10,620 nt of DNA from Halanaerobiaceae bacterium (GTDB lineage: Bacteria; Bacillota_F; Halanaerobiia; Halanaerobiales; CSSED10-376), in assembly GCA_003557445.1 (NCBI GenBank), contig PWOK01000108.1:1-10620 (forward strand). Reading direction: 5' to 3'. Both the position numbers and the translations under genes were made by a program. Below are positions 3,595-9,520 of the stretch, piece after piece. Under the pieces are notes generated by a model. The model saw only the letters and a list, made by a program, of their open reading frames with translations, was not told the DNA's origin and ran no database searches. Position 1 is the first letter of the stretch. Each line of letters starts with the position of its first letter.

Positions 3595-4623
3595 TTAATA
3601 GTTGCTCCTCTCGATTTGTTTGATAATATTTCCTGGAATATCATATAAAGGTGTTATTTCATCATAGGCTTTTTCTTTTATAGTACTGCCAGGCATACCG
3701 TAAACAAGAGCTGTATCTCTGGCTTCAACAATACCATAACCATTATATTTTTTTATCTCTTTCATCCCAAGTGCACCATCATGGCCCATTCCGGTTAAAA
3801 TTACACCTATTACACGTTCTTTATATATTTGGGCAGAAGAGATCATCATATAATCTATACAGGGTCTAACACCCCATTTTTTAGGTTTTTGATTTAGTCT
3901 TATTCTTCCCTTTTCGGTAATAAGTAAATGATAATTACCTGGAGCCAGTAATACAGTTCCTGGCTTTATAAGATCATTACTGGAGGCTTCTTTAACATTT
4001 AAATTAGCAAGCTCATTTAAATGGTTGGCCAGAGAAGTGGTAAAACCCTCAGGCATATGTTGTACTATAACAATGGCAGCAGGTAAATCAGCAGGTAAAG
4101 GTTTTAGAAGGGATTTTAAGGCCTTAGGCCCACCTGAAGAAGTTCCAATAGCAATGACAGGATAATTGTATTTAGTTCCTTTAATACCGGTATAATTTTT
4201 AGAAGGTGTTTTATAATCTTCTTTAAAAATTTTACTTTTACTGGCTGCTTTGATTTTTGTAATCATTTGTTTTTTTATATCATCAATGTTTAAAGAGATT
4301 TCCCCCGAGGGTTTGGGAATAAAGTCAAAGGCCCCAATTTCCAGGGCCTGTAGTACTGTTTCTTTATTGTCCATGGCACTGAGCATTATCACTGATATTT
4401 CAGGGTGTTTTTTACGAATTATTTTTAAAGTATCGATTCCATTTAAAACTGGCATTTCTATATCCAGGGTTACTATATCAGGTTTTTTTTGTTCAATTAA
4501 TTCCAGGGCTTTTTTGCCGTTTCTGGCTGTTGCTATTACATTTAATTCAGGGTCATTATTTATTGTTTTTTTAAAAATTTGTCTCATAAAAGCAGAATCA
4601 TCTACAACTAAGACTTTTATCAT
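3595..4623 (-). CDS. cheB: Chemotaxis response regulator / protein-glutamate methylesterase CheB
   Basis: CheB removes methyl groups from chemoreceptors, and deamidates receptor glutamines in some species, when phosphorylated by CheA. The N-terminal receiver domain (about 1-120) shows the acidic pocket D8/D9, the phospho-acceptor D54 in VTLDIEMPVLNG, and K104 in the IPKP turn. A linker of about 30 residues leads to the methylesterase domain (about 153-342) with the catalytic triad S162 (GTSSGG), H189 (VQHMPEGFT) and D282 (TGMGHDGALGM). At 342 residues it is full length. ATG 4623 has GGAGG seven bases upstream. cheR follows directly. No CheA, CheW, CheY, receptor or flagellar gene is in the window, so this is an orphan adaptation pair here. 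It is divergent from walJ, with 111 bases between the starts. Confidence 0.96.
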   Translation of the reverse strand: MIKVLVVDDSAFMRQIFKKTINNDPELNVIATARNGKKALELIEQKKPDIVTLDIEMPVLNGIDTLKIIRKKHPEISVIMLSAMDNKETVLQALEIGAFDFIPKPSGEISLNIDDIKKQMITKIKAASKSKIFKEDYKTPSKNYTGIKGTKYNYPVIAIGTSSGGPKALKSLLKPLPADLPAAIVIVQHMPEGFTTSLANHLNELANLNVKEASSNDLIKPGTVLLAPGNYHLLITEKGRIRLNQKPKKWGVRPCIDYMMISSAQIYKERVIGVILTGMGHDGALGMKEIKKYNGYGIVEARDTALVYGMPGSTIKEKAYDEITPLYDIPGNIIKQIERSNY

Positions 4624-5550: not shown

Positions 5551-6030
5551 ATGGAAATAAATATAATTGCTGTTGGTAAAATTAAAGAAAATTATATTCA
5601 GTCAGGAATAGATAATTATATTAACAGATTACAGAGATTATGTGAAATCGAAATACATGAAGTTAATCCTCGAAAAGTAACAAAAAAAGCTACAGGAGGT
5701 CAGATAGAAAAAATTAAGGAAAAAGAGGGTGAACGTATATTAGAAAGAATACCTGAGGATAATTATATTATTGCTTTATCTGTACAGGGTAAACCCATGA
5801 CTTCAGAGGGGCTGGCTAAATCTCTTAAAAATCTTCAGCTTCAGGGACATCAAAAGATCACCTTTATAATCGGAGGGTCACTTGGTTTGAGTGATAAAAT
5901 AGAAAAAAAAGCAGATTATATTTTATCCTTATCCCATATGACTTTTACCCATCAGATGATTCGTTTAATTTTACTGGAACAAATTTATAGGGCTTTCAAG
6001 ATAATGAATGGTGAACCCTATCATAAGTAG
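5551..6030 (+). CDS. rlmH: 23S rRNA (pseudouridine1915-N3)-methyltransferase RlmH
   Basis: RlmH is a small SPOUT-class methyltransferase that adds a methyl group to N3 of pseudouridine 1915 in helix 69 of 23S rRNA on assembled 70S ribosomes. The protein is exactly the usual 159 residues. It shows the trefoil-knot SAM-binding elements: FIIGGSLG (105-112), SLSHMTFTHQMIRLILLEQ (126-144) and the ending NGEPYHK (153-159). The start is fixed by the family N-terminus (MEINIIAVGKIKE). The nearest ribosome binding site, AAAGGAG (5529-5535), lies about 15 bases upstream, longer than usual. A tiny frame-shifted TTG frame (5540-5560) overlaps the start. It is the second gene of the walJ operon and is followed by a probable terminator. 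In Staphylococcus the 3' end of this gene is the SCC integration site. Confidence 0.97.
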   Translation: MEINIIAVGKIKENYIQSGIDNYINRLQRLCEIEIHEVNPRKVTKKATGGQIEKIKEKEGERILERIPEDNYIIALSVQGKPMTSEGLAKSLKNLQLQGHQKITFIIGGSLGLSDKIEKKADYILSLSHMTFTHQMIRLILLEQIYRAFKIMNGEPYHK

Positions 6031-6072
6031 TGCATAAGAATAAGGTTTTAGAGGTAGTAGGCTGTGGGCAGC

Positions 6073-6104
6073 TAAAATATTCTGATGGCAGGTATTTTAT
6101 TTTT
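6073..6104 (+). terminator. Probable intrinsic terminator after rlmH
   Basis: The arms TAAAATA (6073-6079) and TATTTTA (6093-6099) are perfectly complementary. Inside them CTG (6082-6084) pairs with CAG (6089-6091) across an ATGG loop. Five T residues (6100-6104) follow at once. The outer stem is pure AT, so stability is modest, but the position 43 bases after the rlmH stop and just before a new promoter fits well. Confidence 0.5.
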
Positions 6105-6113
6105 ATGCAAGTA

Positions 6114-6122
6114 TGATATAAT
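6114..6122 (+). promoter_or_regulatory. Extended -10 promoter for the nucleotidyltransferase gene pair
   Basis: The string TGATATAAT gives a perfect TATAAT (6117-6122) preceded by the TGn extension (6114-6116). No good -35 hexamer lies 17 bases upstream, which is tolerated by extended -10 promoters. Transcription would start near 6129, giving a leader of about 34 bases carrying the AGGAGGG site (6151-6157). This argues against any gene start upstream of 6163. Confidence 0.6.
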
Positions 6123-6162
6123 AAAATTGTACGGAAAAAATTTTATAACCAGGAGGGCTAAC

Positions 6163-6729
6163 ATGTCTAAATCTAATGATATAGGTTTAATGGATAAAGA
6201 TAGTCTCTTGGAGATTTTCAGTTATCTCAACGAACGGCTAAAAGAAAATCAATTACAACTTGAAATAACAATATATGGTGGTTCTATTATGACTATGGTT
6301 TATGATAATAGACCTGCTACAAAAGATATAGATTGTGTGTTTAGCGAAACTAACTTAAAGATATTGGATAACATTCTAAAACTTATTAAGTTTACATATA
6401 ATCTTTCAGATAATTGGATAAATGAAGAAATCAAAGAACCATTAAAAGCCCTCTTAAAAGAGGATATAGAAACCTATAAAGTATATTCTAATTTAAAAAT
6501 ATTAAAACCAAAAGCTGAACAATTACTTGCTATGAAGGTACTGGCGGCCAGACCCGAGCCAGCTAAAGATTTTGTAGATGCTTATATATTGTGTAAAGAT
6601 TTGAAGATTACCACTAAAGCAGAGCTTTTAGATATAGTTTCAGATTATATTTCTCTAACACTTTTAGGAGAAAGGCAAATAAGTTTTATTAAGTATTTAG
6701 GGGAGGAGTTAGGTTATGATTGGAAATAA
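6163..6729 (+). CDS. Nucleotidyltransferase-fold protein (DUF6036-like), candidate toxin of a two-gene module
   Basis: The 188-residue protein has the N-terminal signature of a minimal nucleotidyltransferase. IYGGS (37-41) ends in the glycine-serine motif, and after a 13-residue helix TKDIDCVF carries the DxD metal pair D55/D57. Further on, EQLLAMKVLAARPEPAKDFVDA (119-140) has a lysine (K125) and acidic residues (D136, D139) placed like the later motifs of AbiEii/MenT-type enzymes. I recall similar proteins under DUF6036, usually next to a small partner, as here. The substrate cannot be read from sequence; relatives of the fold modify tRNA or proteins. ATG 6163 is chosen because AGGAGGG lies five bases upstream; a longer frame back to 6085 starts inside the terminator and ahead of the promoter. 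The next gene overlaps its end by 14 bases. Confidence 0.72.
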   Translation: MSKSNDIGLMDKDSLLEIFSYLNERLKENQLQLEITIYGGSIMTMVYDNRPATKDIDCVFSETNLKILDNILKLIKFTYNLSDNWINEEIKEPLKALLKEDIETYKVYSNLKILKPKAEQLLAMKVLAARPEPAKDFVDAYILCKDLKITTKAELLDIVSDYISLTLLGERQISFIKYLGEELGYDWK

Positions 6730-7093
6730 ATATTTAAAAGCTTTATTTGAGTACCCAGATGAAGATACGACTATAAATCAATTACTGGAATTATTAAAAT
6801 CTAAGGATATGAAATTTATAAATAGTTTATATGAACCAATAGATATCGATAACTGTAATGATAAAGAATTAAAGTATTTAATTAAAATTTCAGCCTTAAT
6901 AGATTATTATTTACAATTATATGAGATAGAGGTACCTACCTGGTTAAGGGATGAAAGGTTAAGGTTTGAAAAACCCTATTTTCATTCAAAAAGATTAACT
7001 GATTTTGAAAAGGTAAAGTTGCAATATATTAATCCTTCTCCGTTTAAAGTACGAAATGTTTATTTTGATTTATATGGTATTGATAGAATTTAG
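6716..7093 (+). CDS. Partner of the nucleotidyltransferase-fold protein, candidate antitoxin
   Basis: This 125-residue soluble protein has no signal peptide or membrane segment. Its ATG (6716) lies inside the end of the preceding gene in another frame, with GGAGGAG (6702-6708) seven bases upstream, so the two are translated from one message. The N-terminal half is helical. The C-terminal half has a distinctive pattern: VPTWLRDERLRFEKPYF (73-89) and NPSPFKVRNVYFD (106-118). From memory, this P-x-W-l-x-(D/E)..L....P.F ... PxxFx.RNvf arrangement recurs in the C-terminal part of proteins encoded beside DUF6036 nucleotidyltransferases, often there fused to an N-terminal helix-turn-helix. No obvious helix-turn-helix is seen here. 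The antitoxin role is inferred from gene pairing, not from any domain I can name. Confidence 0.62.
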   Translation: MIGNKYLKALFEYPDEDTTINQLLELLKSKDMKFINSLYEPIDIDNCNDKELKYLIKISALIDYYLQLYEIEVPTWLRDERLRFEKPYFHSKRLTDFEKVKLQYINPSPFKVRNVYFDLYGIDRI

Positions 7094-7112
7094 ATTGGAG
7101 ACTTTTTTATGT

Positions 7113-7138
7113 ACTTCCTTCCTGTTACAGAAGGAAGT
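7113..7138. repeat. Inverted repeat (hairpin) downstream of the gene pair
   Basis: ACTTCCTT (7113-7120) and AAGGAAGT (7131-7138) form a perfect 8-bp stem around a 10-base centre that can itself pair CTG with CAG. It lies 20 bases after the stop of the preceding gene and between two convergent genes, where a terminator is expected. No T-run follows on either strand, so it may only stabilise 3' ends; T6 at 7103-7108 precedes it on the plus strand. Confidence 0.5.
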
Positions 7139-7173
7139 TAAAACAAAACTCATTTAAAGTTAAAAGCGTGATA

Positions 7174-7222
7174 AGGGTAATAGGTGAAACCCTAAATCCT
7201 ATTAGATATTACCATATAGGGT
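7174..7222. repeat. Cluster of competing short inverted repeats
   Basis: Four short pairings share bases: AGGGT (7174-7178) with ACCCT (7189-7193), TAATAGG (7178-7184) with CCTATTA (7198-7204), GGTAATA (7176-7182) with TATTACC (7207-7213), and ACCCTA (7189-7194) with TAGGGT (7217-7222). They cannot all form together. The cluster overlaps the last codons and 3' flank of the arginine-rich gene on the minus strand. Confidence 0.45.
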
Positions 7223-7352
7223 GGCGCCTTCTACGTCTACGTCTGCGCCTCCTGGGAGGTCTTCGTCTCCTACGTCTACGCCTACGCCTTCTGGGAGGTC
7301 TACGTCTTCTGCGGGGCCTGCGTCTTCTTCTACGCCTGTCATAATCACCCAT
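7209..7352 (-). CDS. Arginine-rich 47-residue mini-protein (protamine-like composition), function unknown
   Basis: The minus-strand frame from ATG 7352-7350 to TAA 7211-7209 encodes MGDYD-R7-P-R5-PP-R11-PP-R10-HPIW: 33 of 47 residues are arginine. The start has an excellent site, GGAGGTG (complement of 7359-7365), six bases upstream. Arginine codons are mixed (13 AGA, 8 AGG, 7 CGT, 4 CGC, 1 CGA), so this is not a simple triplet expansion, and the local GC content is far above the surroundings. PP pairs recur every 13 residues, reflecting a 39-base repeat. There are no hydrophobic segments, signal peptide, acidic body or cysteines. Such composition would bind nucleic acid strongly; possible roles include DNA condensation, rRNA binding, a spore or coat component, or a membrane-active peptide. 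I do not recognise the family. It is convergent with the nucleotidyltransferase pair and divergent from the ORF at 7598. Confidence 0.75.
   Translation of the reverse strand: MGDYDRRRRRRRPRRRRRPPRRRRRRRRRRRPPRRRRRRRRRRHPIW
7221..7298 (-). repeat. 39-base tandem repeat inside the arginine-rich gene
   Basis: Two adjacent 39-base units (7298-7260 and 7259-7221 on the minus strand) each begin CCTCCC and encode PP followed by 10-11 arginines. I count about 31 of 39 bases alike. The plus-strand string CTGGGAGGTCT occurs at 7252-7262 and again at 7291-7301, exactly 39 bases apart. A further CCT proline codon at 7218-7220 is in phase as a third start. Confidence 0.7.
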
Positions 7353-7452
7353 ATAAAACACCTCCATTATATTTTTGAGGTTATATTCTGATTGGAAACC
7401 CGTTAAAACAATATATTAGAGTTGCCATAAGAATAAAAAAATAACATATAAT

Positions 7453-7481
7453 ATACTATGTAATAAAAAACTATTTGTGAA
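7453..7481 (-). promoter_or_regulatory. Possible promoter of the arginine-rich gene
   Basis: Read on the minus strand, TTCACA (7481-7476) matches the -35 consensus at five of six positions. Seventeen bases on, TAGTAT (7458-7453) matches the -10 at four of six. The start point would be near 7446, giving a leader of about 94 bases. The region is extremely AT-rich, so other placements are possible. Confidence 0.35.
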
Positions 7482-7533
7482 ATATAATGGAAAAAGATAA
7501 TAAAAATAAAAAATCTTTTGTTTACAGGTTTTA

Positions 7534-7562
7534 TTGATTATAAGCCATTAACATTATATAAT
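7534..7562 (+). promoter_or_regulatory. Sigma-A type promoter upstream of the small membrane ORF
   Basis: TTGATT (7534-7539), a 17-base spacer and a perfect TATAAT (7557-7562) form a good vegetative promoter. Transcription would begin near 7569, about 29 bases before the ATG at 7598. It probably also serves the gene at 7813, as no terminator separates them. Confidence 0.6.
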
Positions 7563-7597
7563 ATTTATTAAATAAAAATTAAAAAGAGGTGAATTGC

Positions 7598-7744
7598 ATG
7601 CAAAAAGAGTTAGAATCAGAAGGAAATTTTATAGTTCCAGATGCTCTTAAAACCTGGTTTGTTATCCATTTTTTTGTTGATATGATAGCAGCAATTCCTC
7701 TGTTTATAATGCCAGATTCTGGATATATTGGAGAAATCGTTTAA
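7598..7744 (+). CDS. 48-residue putative membrane protein, possibly a truncated remnant
   Basis: A short frame (ATG 7598, TAA 7742-7744) follows AGAGGTGA (7585-7592) at proper spacing and a well-formed promoter. Residues 1-18 are polar (MQKELESEGNFIVPDALK); residues 20-38 (WFVIHFFVDMIAAIPLFIM) form one hydrophobic segment; a short tail follows. The pattern 'K-x-W-hydrophobic-H-F-x-(V/I)-D-x-I-x-AIPLFI-x-P' resembles, from memory, the first membrane segment of longer multi-pass bacterial proteins of unknown function. If so, this copy stops after one segment of several. The 68 bases after the stop contain another open stretch in a different frame (ending KYMRGN, just before 7813) that could be debris of the same gene. 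It may be a genuine single-pass mini-protein or a decaying gene; I cannot decide from this window. Confidence 0.5.
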   Translation: MQKELESEGNFIVPDALKTWFVIHFFVDMIAAIPLFIMPDSGYIGEIV

Positions 7745-7812
7745 AAAAATAAATCAAGCATATCAAACCTCGTTTTAGAGAGATTTGCTAATAAATATAT
7801 GAGGGGGAACTA

Positions 7813-8562
7813 ATGGTGTTAGATGCAATTTCAATAACAATTATTTTTATTATTCTTTCAGCACTGGTGGCAGTTATTGTTAGAAAAACCAAAAAGGATA
7901 AATGTTTAAAAAGTTTTAGAGATAATATAGTAACTCTGGAACTGATTAATGGTCAGACAGCCAAAGGAGAATTAAAGGTCAAAAGTTCCGGGATTAAAAT
8001 TGATTATTCTAAAAAAATAAGTGATCAAAGTGGATTGACATTTCTAAGCTATCTTTTATATAAAAGTGAATATCCTGATATTCTTGCAATTGTTAGGTAT
8101 TATAAAGATTTAAGAGAAAATGCGAAAAAGGAAAGAGAAAAAGATTTCAAAAAAACATTTAATCCTTCCCGCTGGAGAAGAGTTTTAAGAACTATCATTA
8201 ATTTTCTTAAAATTATTAAAGATTCTATTATTGAAATTTTAAATTTATTAACAAATCATCTTTCTAAAACTACTCCTGTGGGTATGACTATGGGAAAACA
8301 GGAAAATCATATTACAAGAATGAAAAATGAAGTATATGGGGTTATTGAAACATCATATGAACCACTGCTTGAAGAATATATCGGACATAGAGTTATTCTT
8401 GAATTAAAAAAGGGCAATGAATGGGTTAAATATAAAGGGGTTTTGAAGGAATATACAGCAGAATTTATAGAAATAATTGATGTTGAATATGGGGAAAAAA
8501 AATATCAGGCTGATTTAATTGTACTCAGAAAATATGGTATTGTTCGCAATCTGAGTGAGTGA
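7813..8562 (+). CDS. Membrane-anchored protein of unknown function with two beta-rich segments
   Basis: This 249-residue protein starts with one membrane segment (about 6-23) followed by RKTKKDK, so the bulk is probably cytoplasmic. Residues 38-66 (IVTLELINGQTAKGELKV, then IKIDY) look like a small beta-barrel of Sm/SH3 style. A basic, helical middle follows (98-150), including RRVLRTIINFLKIIKD, which could lie on the membrane surface. Residues 178-226 (YEPLLEEYIGHRVILELKKG, then KGVLKEYTAEFIEIIDV) repeat the beta-rich theme: 'VILELKKGNEWVKYKGVLKEY' echoes 'VTLELINGQTAKGELKV', suggesting two related barrels. I have an impression of similar conserved hypothetical proteins in anaerobes but no name or function. 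GAGGGGG (7801-7807) precedes ATG 7813. It follows the 48-residue membrane ORF by 68 bases, probably on one transcript. Confidence 0.7.
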   Translation: MVLDAISITIIFIILSALVAVIVRKTKKDKCLKSFRDNIVTLELINGQTAKGELKVKSSGIKIDYSKKISDQSGLTFLSYLLYKSEYPDILAIVRYYKDLRENAKKEREKDFKKTFNPSRWRRVLRTIINFLKIIKDSIIEILNLLTNHLSKTTPVGMTMGKQENHITRMKNEVYGVIETSYEPLLEEYIGHRVILELKKGNEWVKYKGVLKEYTAEFIEIIDVEYGEKKYQADLIVLRKYGIVRNLSE

Positions 8563-8660
8563 AAATAAGGCCTTTGGTATATTATTCACGTGATTAATTA
8601 CTGTGTAGTTAAGCAAATTAATATTACATAAAAGGTATAAAGTGTAAGAAATTTTTCACT

Positions 8661-8689
8661 TTGAATAATAAATTTAACCATGATATACT
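8661..8689 (+). promoter_or_regulatory. Promoter of the lar operon
   Basis: TTGAAT (8661-8666), exactly 17 bases, then TATACT (8684-8689), preceded by TGA (8681-8683) as an extended -10. The start point would be near 8696, about 70 bases before larB. Just upstream, AAAGTG (8639-8644) and CACTTT (8657-8662) form a 6-bp inverted repeat whose right arm overlaps the -35 by two bases, so it could be an operator. Confidence 0.6.
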
Positions 8690-8764
8690 TATTTAAATAC
8701 TTTTAATATCAAGCAATTATAAAATTTTTTTAAGTGAATATTAAAGTAAAGAGGGATGTATAAA

Positions 8765-9520
8765 ATGATAAAAAACACTGACGAATTAAAAAAAATACTT
8801 AAACAGATAAAAAAAGGTAAACTGAATATTGATAGGGCAGTAGAGAAACTAACTGATCCCGGTTACCAGGACTTAGGTTTTGCCAAGATAGATCATAATA
8901 GAAGCAGCAGAAGGGGATTTCCTGAAGTTGTACTCTGTGAGGGAAAAACAAAAGATCAGGTTGTTCAAATCATGGTTAAATTAACTGATCTTTATGACAA
9001 TGTTCTGGCAACAAGGGCTGTACCGGAAGTCTTTGAGGCAGTAAAGGAAAAGATATCTGAAGCCAGATATAATAGGTCTGGTAGAACAATTACTGTTGAA
9101 AGAAAACCCCTGGAAAGAAAGGGATCAATACTGGTTGTAAGTGCAGGTACGGCTGATTTACCGGTAGTTGAAGAAACAGTGGAAACCGCAAAAATAATGG
9201 GTAATAAAGTAGAAAAACTTACAGATGCTGGAGTGGCTGGAGTTCATAGATTATTAAATAATGTATCTTATCTGAATAAAGCAAAGGTAATAATTGTAGT
9301 GGCGGGAATGGATGGGGCTTTACCCAGTGTTGTGGGAGGACTTGTAAATAAACCTGTAATTGCAGTTCCCACCAGTGTTGGTTATGGAGCAAGTTTTGGA
9401 GGACTGGCACCACTTTTAACCATGTTAAATAGCTGTGCAGCAGGTATTGGAGTGGTGAACATAGATAATGGTTTTGGTGCTGCCTATCTGGCAAATTCAA
9501 TAAATAAAATAGGAGAATAA
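8765..9520 (+). CDS. larB: LarB, pyridinium-3,5-biscarboxylic acid mononucleotide synthase
   Basis: LarB catalyses the first step of nickel-pincer nucleotide synthesis: it carboxylates nicotinic acid adenine dinucleotide at C5 and cleaves off AMP. The 251-residue protein has the LarB-specific N-terminal region with DLGFAKIDHNRSSRRGFPEV (36-55) and a C-terminal PurE-like (AIR carboxylase) domain from about 120, with SAGTADLP (126-133), GVAGVHRL (156-163), VAGMDGALPSV (179-189), GYGASFGG (206-213) and NSCAAGIGV (222-230). C224 in NSCAAG is in the position of the covalent catalytic cysteine reported for the Lactobacillus enzyme. I use ATG 8765 rather than 8756: the GAGGG site (8751-8755) touches the upstream ATG but lies nine bases from this one. 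larC follows after 24 bases. Older annotations call this family 'PurE-related, NCAIR mutase-like'; the purine role does not apply. Confidence 0.93.
   Translation: MIKNTDELKKILKQIKKGKLNIDRAVEKLTDPGYQDLGFAKIDHNRSSRRGFPEVVLCEGKTKDQVVQIMVKLTDLYDNVLATRAVPEVFEAVKEKISEARYNRSGRTITVERKPLERKGSILVVSAGTADLPVVEETVETAKIMGNKVEKLTDAGVAGVHRLLNNVSYLNKAKVIIVVAGMDGALPSVVGGLVNKPVIAVPTSVGYGASFGGLAPLLTMLNSCAAGIGVVNIDNGFGAAYLANSINKIGE

Follow-up and report, generated by a model that had tools for sequence, protein, structure and literature searches.

Does a reading frame that spells mostly arginine encode a bacterial protein, and if so, what would such a protein do? The question is raised by a 47-codon frame, here the Arg ORF, on the minus strand (7352-7209) of a 10,620-nucleotide stretch of DNA from a salt-loving Halanaerobiaceae bacterium, a relative of Halanaerobium (contig PWOK01000108.1), the whole of which was analysed and is referred to below as the window. 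Read from its ATG to a TAA stop, the frame has the form MGDYD-R7-P-R5-PP-R11-PP-R10-HPIW (MGDYDRRRRRRRPRRRRRPPRRRRRRRRRRRPPRRRRRRRRRRHPIW, translated from the minus strand, 7352 to 7209), with arginine at 33 of 47 residues (70%) in runs of 7, 5, 11 and 10. The computed product has a mass of ~6.8 kDa, a charge of about +31 and a pI of 12. It is protamine-like in composition, being very high in arginine and having that arginine in runs, and it is expected to lack an ordered fold and to bind any strongly anionic partner. A preliminary description of this DNA had reported the coordinates, strand, sequence, stop codon, ribosome-binding site and arginine share (70%), and all were reproduced from the sequence.

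On balance, and with modest confidence, we favour reading the Arg ORF as a genuine small gene that is translated and lineage-restricted and that would yield a disordered, protamine-like polycation. Translation itself appears probable from the signals described below.

Start signals and genomic position

The Arg ORF sits in a gap (7094-7588) flanked by a two-gene plus-strand cassette on one side and a 48-aa plus-strand ORF on the other. It had been described as antisense to its neighbours, which holds for orientation and not for overlap: it lies within the gap, coincides with no plausible gene, and is opposed to the flanking genes in direction only. GC content is 56.9% in the Arg ORF and 31.7% in the window. 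Four of the five other reading frames of the tract are open as well, and openness of the frame is for that reason no evidence for a gene.

A near-ideal Shine-Dalgarno sequence, GGAGGTG (7359..7365, minus strand), lies six bases before the ATG. Across both strands of the window, GGAGG occurs 4-9 bases upstream of 5 of 324 ATGs, one of which is that of the Arg ORF, while the other four open ORFs of 125, 188, 216 and 342 aa; the start signals of the Arg ORF thus resemble those of real genes in the window. An alternative in-frame ATG at 7367 would extend the product to 52 aa and is not preceded by GGAGG.

A perfect 12-nt inverted repeat (7363-7374 / 7480-7491) is also present; only in longer transcripts would it allow upstream RNA to base-pair with the Shine-Dalgarno region of the Arg ORF. 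Sequestration of the Shine-Dalgarno by this repeat was considered and set aside, the fold being no better than that of shuffled sequences (z about -0.9).

Repeat copies and codon usage

Within the Arg ORF are two tandem 39-bp copies of 13 codons each (7225-7263 and 7264-7302, minus strand), identical at 33 of 39 bases. Aligned in register, the copies show six base differences, all of them third-position changes synonymous for arginine. The chance that six random substitutions in a 12-codon unit would all be synonymous is 0.0004-0.0005 by simulation under four mutation-bias settings and 0.0004-0.0009 by formula, both calculated for a register displaced by four bases and hence without one end codon (AGA/CAC), which lies past the run. 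The first and third codon bases are also linked in the way the arginine code demands: all 21 AGN codons end in A or G, and 11 of 12 CGN codons end in T or C (Fisher p 6e-8). Two points count against this evidence. Part of the linkage could have arisen by expansion of an AGACGT hexamer. The changes between repeat copies are synonymous also in a plus-strand Leu/Arg frame (inferred from comparison of the frames), so that the copies show one or other of two frames to be constrained; of these the minus frame is the likelier, given its start site.

Arginine is encoded in the Arg ORF by AGA (13), AGG (8), CGT (7), CGC (4) and CGA (1). The argument of the preliminary description from codon variety proved weaker than stated, as such variety is ordinary here: 11 longer ORFs in the window use all six arginine codons (AGA 64, AGG 22, CGT 10, CGA 7, CGC 5, CGG 3). 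Synonymous variety nonetheless amounts to 1.83 bits in the Arg ORF versus 0.87-1.20 bits in four arginine tracts of shadow frames, and arginine codons of the Arg ORF vary at both first and third positions. Amino-acid entropy was dropped as a test of the coding frame, since shadow arginine frames are low in entropy too.

The alternative that survives best is a non-functional one, in which a GC-rich minisatellite carries a chance Shine-Dalgarno-like sequence and is either not translated or without effect. The tandem repeats, the fact that the tract is open in four of its five other frames, the lack of homologues in the searches below and the fact that the locus is known from one sequence are all consistent with it. 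It does not sit well with a Shine-Dalgarno-ATG pair like that of four long genes nearby, nor with synonymous-only divergence between the repeat copies, and we consider it unlikely, if by no means negligible. These same two observations support the earlier suggestion of a real and easily missed small gene with a protamine-like composition. The roles proposed along with that suggestion (condensing DNA or RNA, ribosome association, a place in the spore coat, membrane activity) are conjectural.

Searches for relatives

Against 5.8 billion proteins, the 52-aa form drew 100 word-sharing candidates, none at E≤1, and the 47-aa form 68, none at E≤10. Among 59 genomes of the class, a single genome gave a match at E≤10 (24% identity, 10.7 bits, in a 394-aa frame), which we did not take for a relative; 398 genomes of the phylum gave 26 at E≤10, the best with E 0.015 and 17.4 bits, among which no relative was recognised. 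Thirty of the phylum loci were fetched and 18 of these read, plus L164. A longer overlapping frame is present in 15 of the 18; of the other three, L163 has a long frame interrupted by a stop, L178 an ordinary protein of 272 aa and L183 a frame of 777 aa with 76% GC. For scale, the Arg ORF scores 49.9 bits against itself and 24.1 bits against a made-up peptide of like build, so a relative of like build should show in a single genome and may escape the large protein search.

In IMG/VR, 600 stretches fit the peptide pattern and none was confirmed by tblastn; in plasmid and phage DNA, searched at E≤10 with the low-complexity filter on, no match covered 80% of the query. Homopolymers are a weak point of short-word protein search, bias-corrected HMMER and low-complexity filters alike. 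The same weakness of profiles applies to Pfam, where the 52-aa form matched no family at E≤0.1, including SASP (PF00269), DUF1127 and any protamine family. The 47-aa form matched no family in NCBIfam, PADLOC or PHROGs. An RNA element at the locus was likewise rejected, Rfam giving no match at E≤1 across 6000-8800. We found no description of the Arg gene in the literature searched, a limited collection queried with limited wording.

Synteny was anchored on a 249-aa plus-strand protein (7813..8562) that has a hydrophobic stretch near its N-terminus and matches LSM (Sm-like) weakly, just over the Pfam cut-off; it is present in 11 of 38 genomes of the order. No Arg-rich ORF was found beside this gene in any of the ten of these 11 genomes that were read, within flanks of up to 1.5 kb.

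The relatives of the host set the distance over which these comparisons were made. In a MetG search of 38 order genomes the top match was G257 (1097.7 bits, 73%), with three others also at 73%, and in a MetG tree of 27 rows the window and G257 group together on long branches, with support of 99/99. Five relatives, reached via a 199-genome sample of the phylum, have Rex identities of 58-71%, and LarB loci are distant, the best segments having 61-62% among the matches listed and none being close. The failure of the class, phylum, protein and viral searches to find a relative counts against the gene reading as such; taken with it, the results suggest that the Arg gene would be lineage-restricted, the genomes compared being no nearer than a sister at MetG 73%.

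Arginine runs in shadow frames

A poly-Arg pattern had 75 matches in 19 of the 38 order genomes, and its backwards-read control was commoner in most of those genomes. For 30 of the 75 the surrounding locus was retrieved, some loci overlapping one another, and every one of these runs is overlapped by a longer open frame. A match in Erwinia phage Yoloswag (60% of the query, E 0.01) is likewise an off-frame reading of an Asp/Glu-rich annotated protein. We also observed long arginine runs that shadow Glu-Gly-rich parts of Halanaerobiia frames of 238-252 aa (L106 at 1452-1550, L109 and L112). Glu-Gly-rich frames are thus a trap for poly-Arg gene scans, and many genomic arginine runs shadow acidic genes.

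The acidic frame of the Arg tract is 48 aa long, mixed in composition and begins with GTG. That the Arg ORF is itself the shadow of an acidic gene is disfavoured by its start site, by the mixed composition of this 48-aa frame and by the variety of its codons. A low-complexity protein was also noted in a Bacillota MAG, where a plus-strand frame at 14689-15075 of L002 encodes 128 aa (MGYYGGRPGFGRPGFGPGFG...).

Upstream promoter and the sporulation question

Upstream of the Arg ORF, on the same strand and ~100-127 bases before the ATG, is a sigma-K-like promoter candidate, CACA-N15-CATAGTATA (AC-N16-CATANNNTA; 7452..7479), from which a 5' leader of ~92 nt is predicted. The form AC-N16-CATANNNTA has this single match in the window on both strands; in other fetched loci there are 10 matches of this form in 263,497 bases. 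The chance of a sigma-K-like match in the 238 upstream nt is 0.2-1.2% under the sequence models used, for a pattern chosen post hoc and as one of several (sigma-E, -F and -G patterns were also tried). The match fits what is described in the portions of the sources consulted, namely AC at -35 with a sigma-E-like -10 in C. difficile sigma-K promoters and a classical spacing of 16-18 (PMC3789822), and an optimal gap of 15 plus or minus 1, i.e. 14-16, between the longer elements recognised by B. subtilis sigma-K (PMC517825). On the other side, a MACM -35 held to a spacing of 16-17 has no match, and relaxing the -10 yields six in the window. The candidate is overlapped by a sigma-A-like site, TTCACA-17-TAGTAT (7481-7453, minus strand, 9 of 12); sites of this kind are in no excess in the region (6 found versus 4.5 expected in shuffles).

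Whether the host sporulates bears on the same point. SASP were detected in 12 of the 38 order genomes and SpoIVA in 11 of 38. Sigma-K scored over the cut-off in 4 of 8 genomes by an imperfect test, in which the B. subtilis control, whose sigK is a split gene, fell below the cut-off. In the sister G257, whose completeness is not given, none of SASP, SpoIVA and sigma-K was found over the cut-off. H. orenii is reported to have genes for sporulation, but its spores have not been demonstrated experimentally (PMC2626281), and Natronospora is termed endospore-forming in a title cited by PMC13220968.

The sigma-K-like candidate is a hint of a spore role for the Arg ORF. In this narrower version of the favoured reading, the product would be made late in sporulation, from sigma-K-driven transcription in the mother cell, and deposited in the spore coat to glue anionic layers or bind silica in the manner of the cationic CotB1 tail. 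An MG-Y-like start, as in the Arg ORF, is common among small coat proteins. The lone, correctly oriented promoter match and the presence of SASP and SpoIVA in the order argue for such a role; the overlapping sigma-A-like site, the post hoc pattern and the missing sporulation markers of the sister, which the MetG tree places closest, argue against it. We regard it as doubtful, the target and timing of the Arg protein being inferred only and the spore role taking perhaps a third of the probability that we give to the gene as a whole.

The silica comparison rests on PMC11818168, in the consulted part of which Arg9, protamine and the cationic CotB1 tail are described as binding or forming silica. 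Bacillus cereus CotB1 (CotB1p/SB7 tail) and Arg9 tags each carry a cationic Arg-rich segment, and that of the Arg ORF could likewise bind anionic silica. CotB1 differs in being 171 aa long, in having a zwitterionic C-terminal region and in a tail that mixes arginine with other residues, and the two are likened by description. Silica binding by CotB1 is, moreover, inhibited at high ionic strength according to the same text, which is a caution for a halophile (PMC11818168).

Neighbouring genes and remaining alternatives

The plus-strand cassette facing the Arg ORF (6163..7093) consists of a DUF6036/AbiEii-like nucleotidyltransferase, with a Pfam score just under the cut-off, and an overlapping 125-aa partner with no Pfam family above it; the arrangement is toxin-antitoxin-like, and the Arg ORF stands apart from it. 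The partner has 403 relatives at E≤0.001, with identities up to 92%, yet occurs in just 3 of 59 class genomes, the pair being kept in all three. Its matches include Natronospora cellulosivora (84%), a member of Halanaerobiales according to the source consulted, and a Halanaerobiaceae bacterium (80%). The cassette is thus patchy in distribution and may be mobile.

Arg-rich peptides disturb membranes, and a toxin-antitoxin-like cassette adjoins the Arg ORF; the product might on these grounds be a secreted or released antimicrobial polycation, or a third part of the cassette. No signal peptide, exporter or immunity gene was recognised by eye among the ORFs of the window, and in the three class genomes that carry the cassette its fetched flanks contain no Arg-dense frame (the downstream flank of L227 is 276 bases, to the contig end), which disfavours the Arg ORF as a cassette component. 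We judge both versions very improbable. Less credible again is coding by the plus strand, in the form of a 58-aa Leu/Arg/Gly ORF (7168-7344): this frame is open and the repeat differences would fall on fourfold-degenerate sites there too, but it starts at a GTG that is not among the GGAGG-preceded starts and would leave the AGR/CGY linkage unexplained. That the Arg ORF is an arginine-sensing leader peptide attenuating a downstream gene is scarcely credible, for while runs of a single amino acid are typical of leader peptides, gene order speaks against it (the next plausible minus-strand gene, cheB, starts at 4623, beyond four plus-strand genes) and a scan of 6950-7850 found no minus-strand terminator-like site.

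Several other features of the neighbourhood were noted. Between the convergent 125-aa ORF and the Arg ORF is a strong hairpin (7100..7151; z -2.8 for 7080-7230, minus strand), a possible shared 3' structure that has no U-run and is absent from the terminator scan list. The one terminator-like site of the region (7310-7322, plus strand) is inside the arginine tract; it has 5 pairs and may be due to chance (1 found, 0.3 expected). On the far side of the gap, the 48-aa plus-strand ORF (7598-7744) has a membrane stretch, TWFVIHFFVDMIAAIPLFI, and an abrupt end, and could derive by truncation from a copy of some longer membrane protein.

An 11-bp direct repeat, CATAAGAATAA, occurs just after the rlmH stop (6033-6043) and again beyond the Arg ORF (7426-7436); it is probably due to chance, a second 11-bp repeat being present nearby. 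An SCC-like insertion after rlmH was accordingly rejected, as only this repeat was found and the rlmH end has no close second copy. Downstream of rlmH, relatives G258 and G259 (L133 and L134) have different genes, one of them restriction-like by eye. This hints that the 3' side of rlmH is a hot spot for insertions here, as it is in staphylococci.

Proposed function and implications

If the Arg ORF is translated as we favour, its 33 guanidinium groups per 47 residues would bind polyanions irrespective of sequence, whether nucleic acid or the anionic surface of a spore or cell, and would condense or coat them. The arginine runs would be broken by proline pairs and framed by a short acidic head and the HPIW tail. 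The array would have grown by tandem duplication of the 39-bp unit and then been maintained as protein.

Among known systems, animal sperm protamines are the nearest in build: they are short, disordered and strongly cationic, with arginine in blocks, and pack sperm DNA. The Arg ORF shares the small size, the blocks of arginine, the predicted disorder and the strong positive charge, and departs from protamines in its Pro-Pro breaks, its acidic head, its bacterial host and the absence of Pfam homology. The SASP of spores (PF00269) are small like the Arg ORF product and coat DNA, a DNA-binding role being possible for the latter as well; to our knowledge they are not poly-arginine, and their profile was unmatched. 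DUF1127 proteins, which are Arg-rich, are small and basic like the Arg ORF product, for which Pfam gave no match.

As a tentative conjecture that we hold unlikely, the Arg ORF could encode a bacterial protamine: a native, near-pure poly-arginine protein of a halophilic Halanaerobiia bacterium, perhaps of late sporulation, whose extreme guanidinium density would keep it bound to polyanions such as the chromosome, the spore surface or silica in salt concentrations that strip off ordinary basic proteins.

Homopolymeric genes escape notice because all they have in common is low-complexity words. If translated, the Arg ORF would be an example of homopolymeric small ORFs, a class that is masked by design in annotation and homology tools, and it would constitute an extreme natural test of positive charge in a bacterial protein, and this in a halophile, whose salt screens ionic binding.
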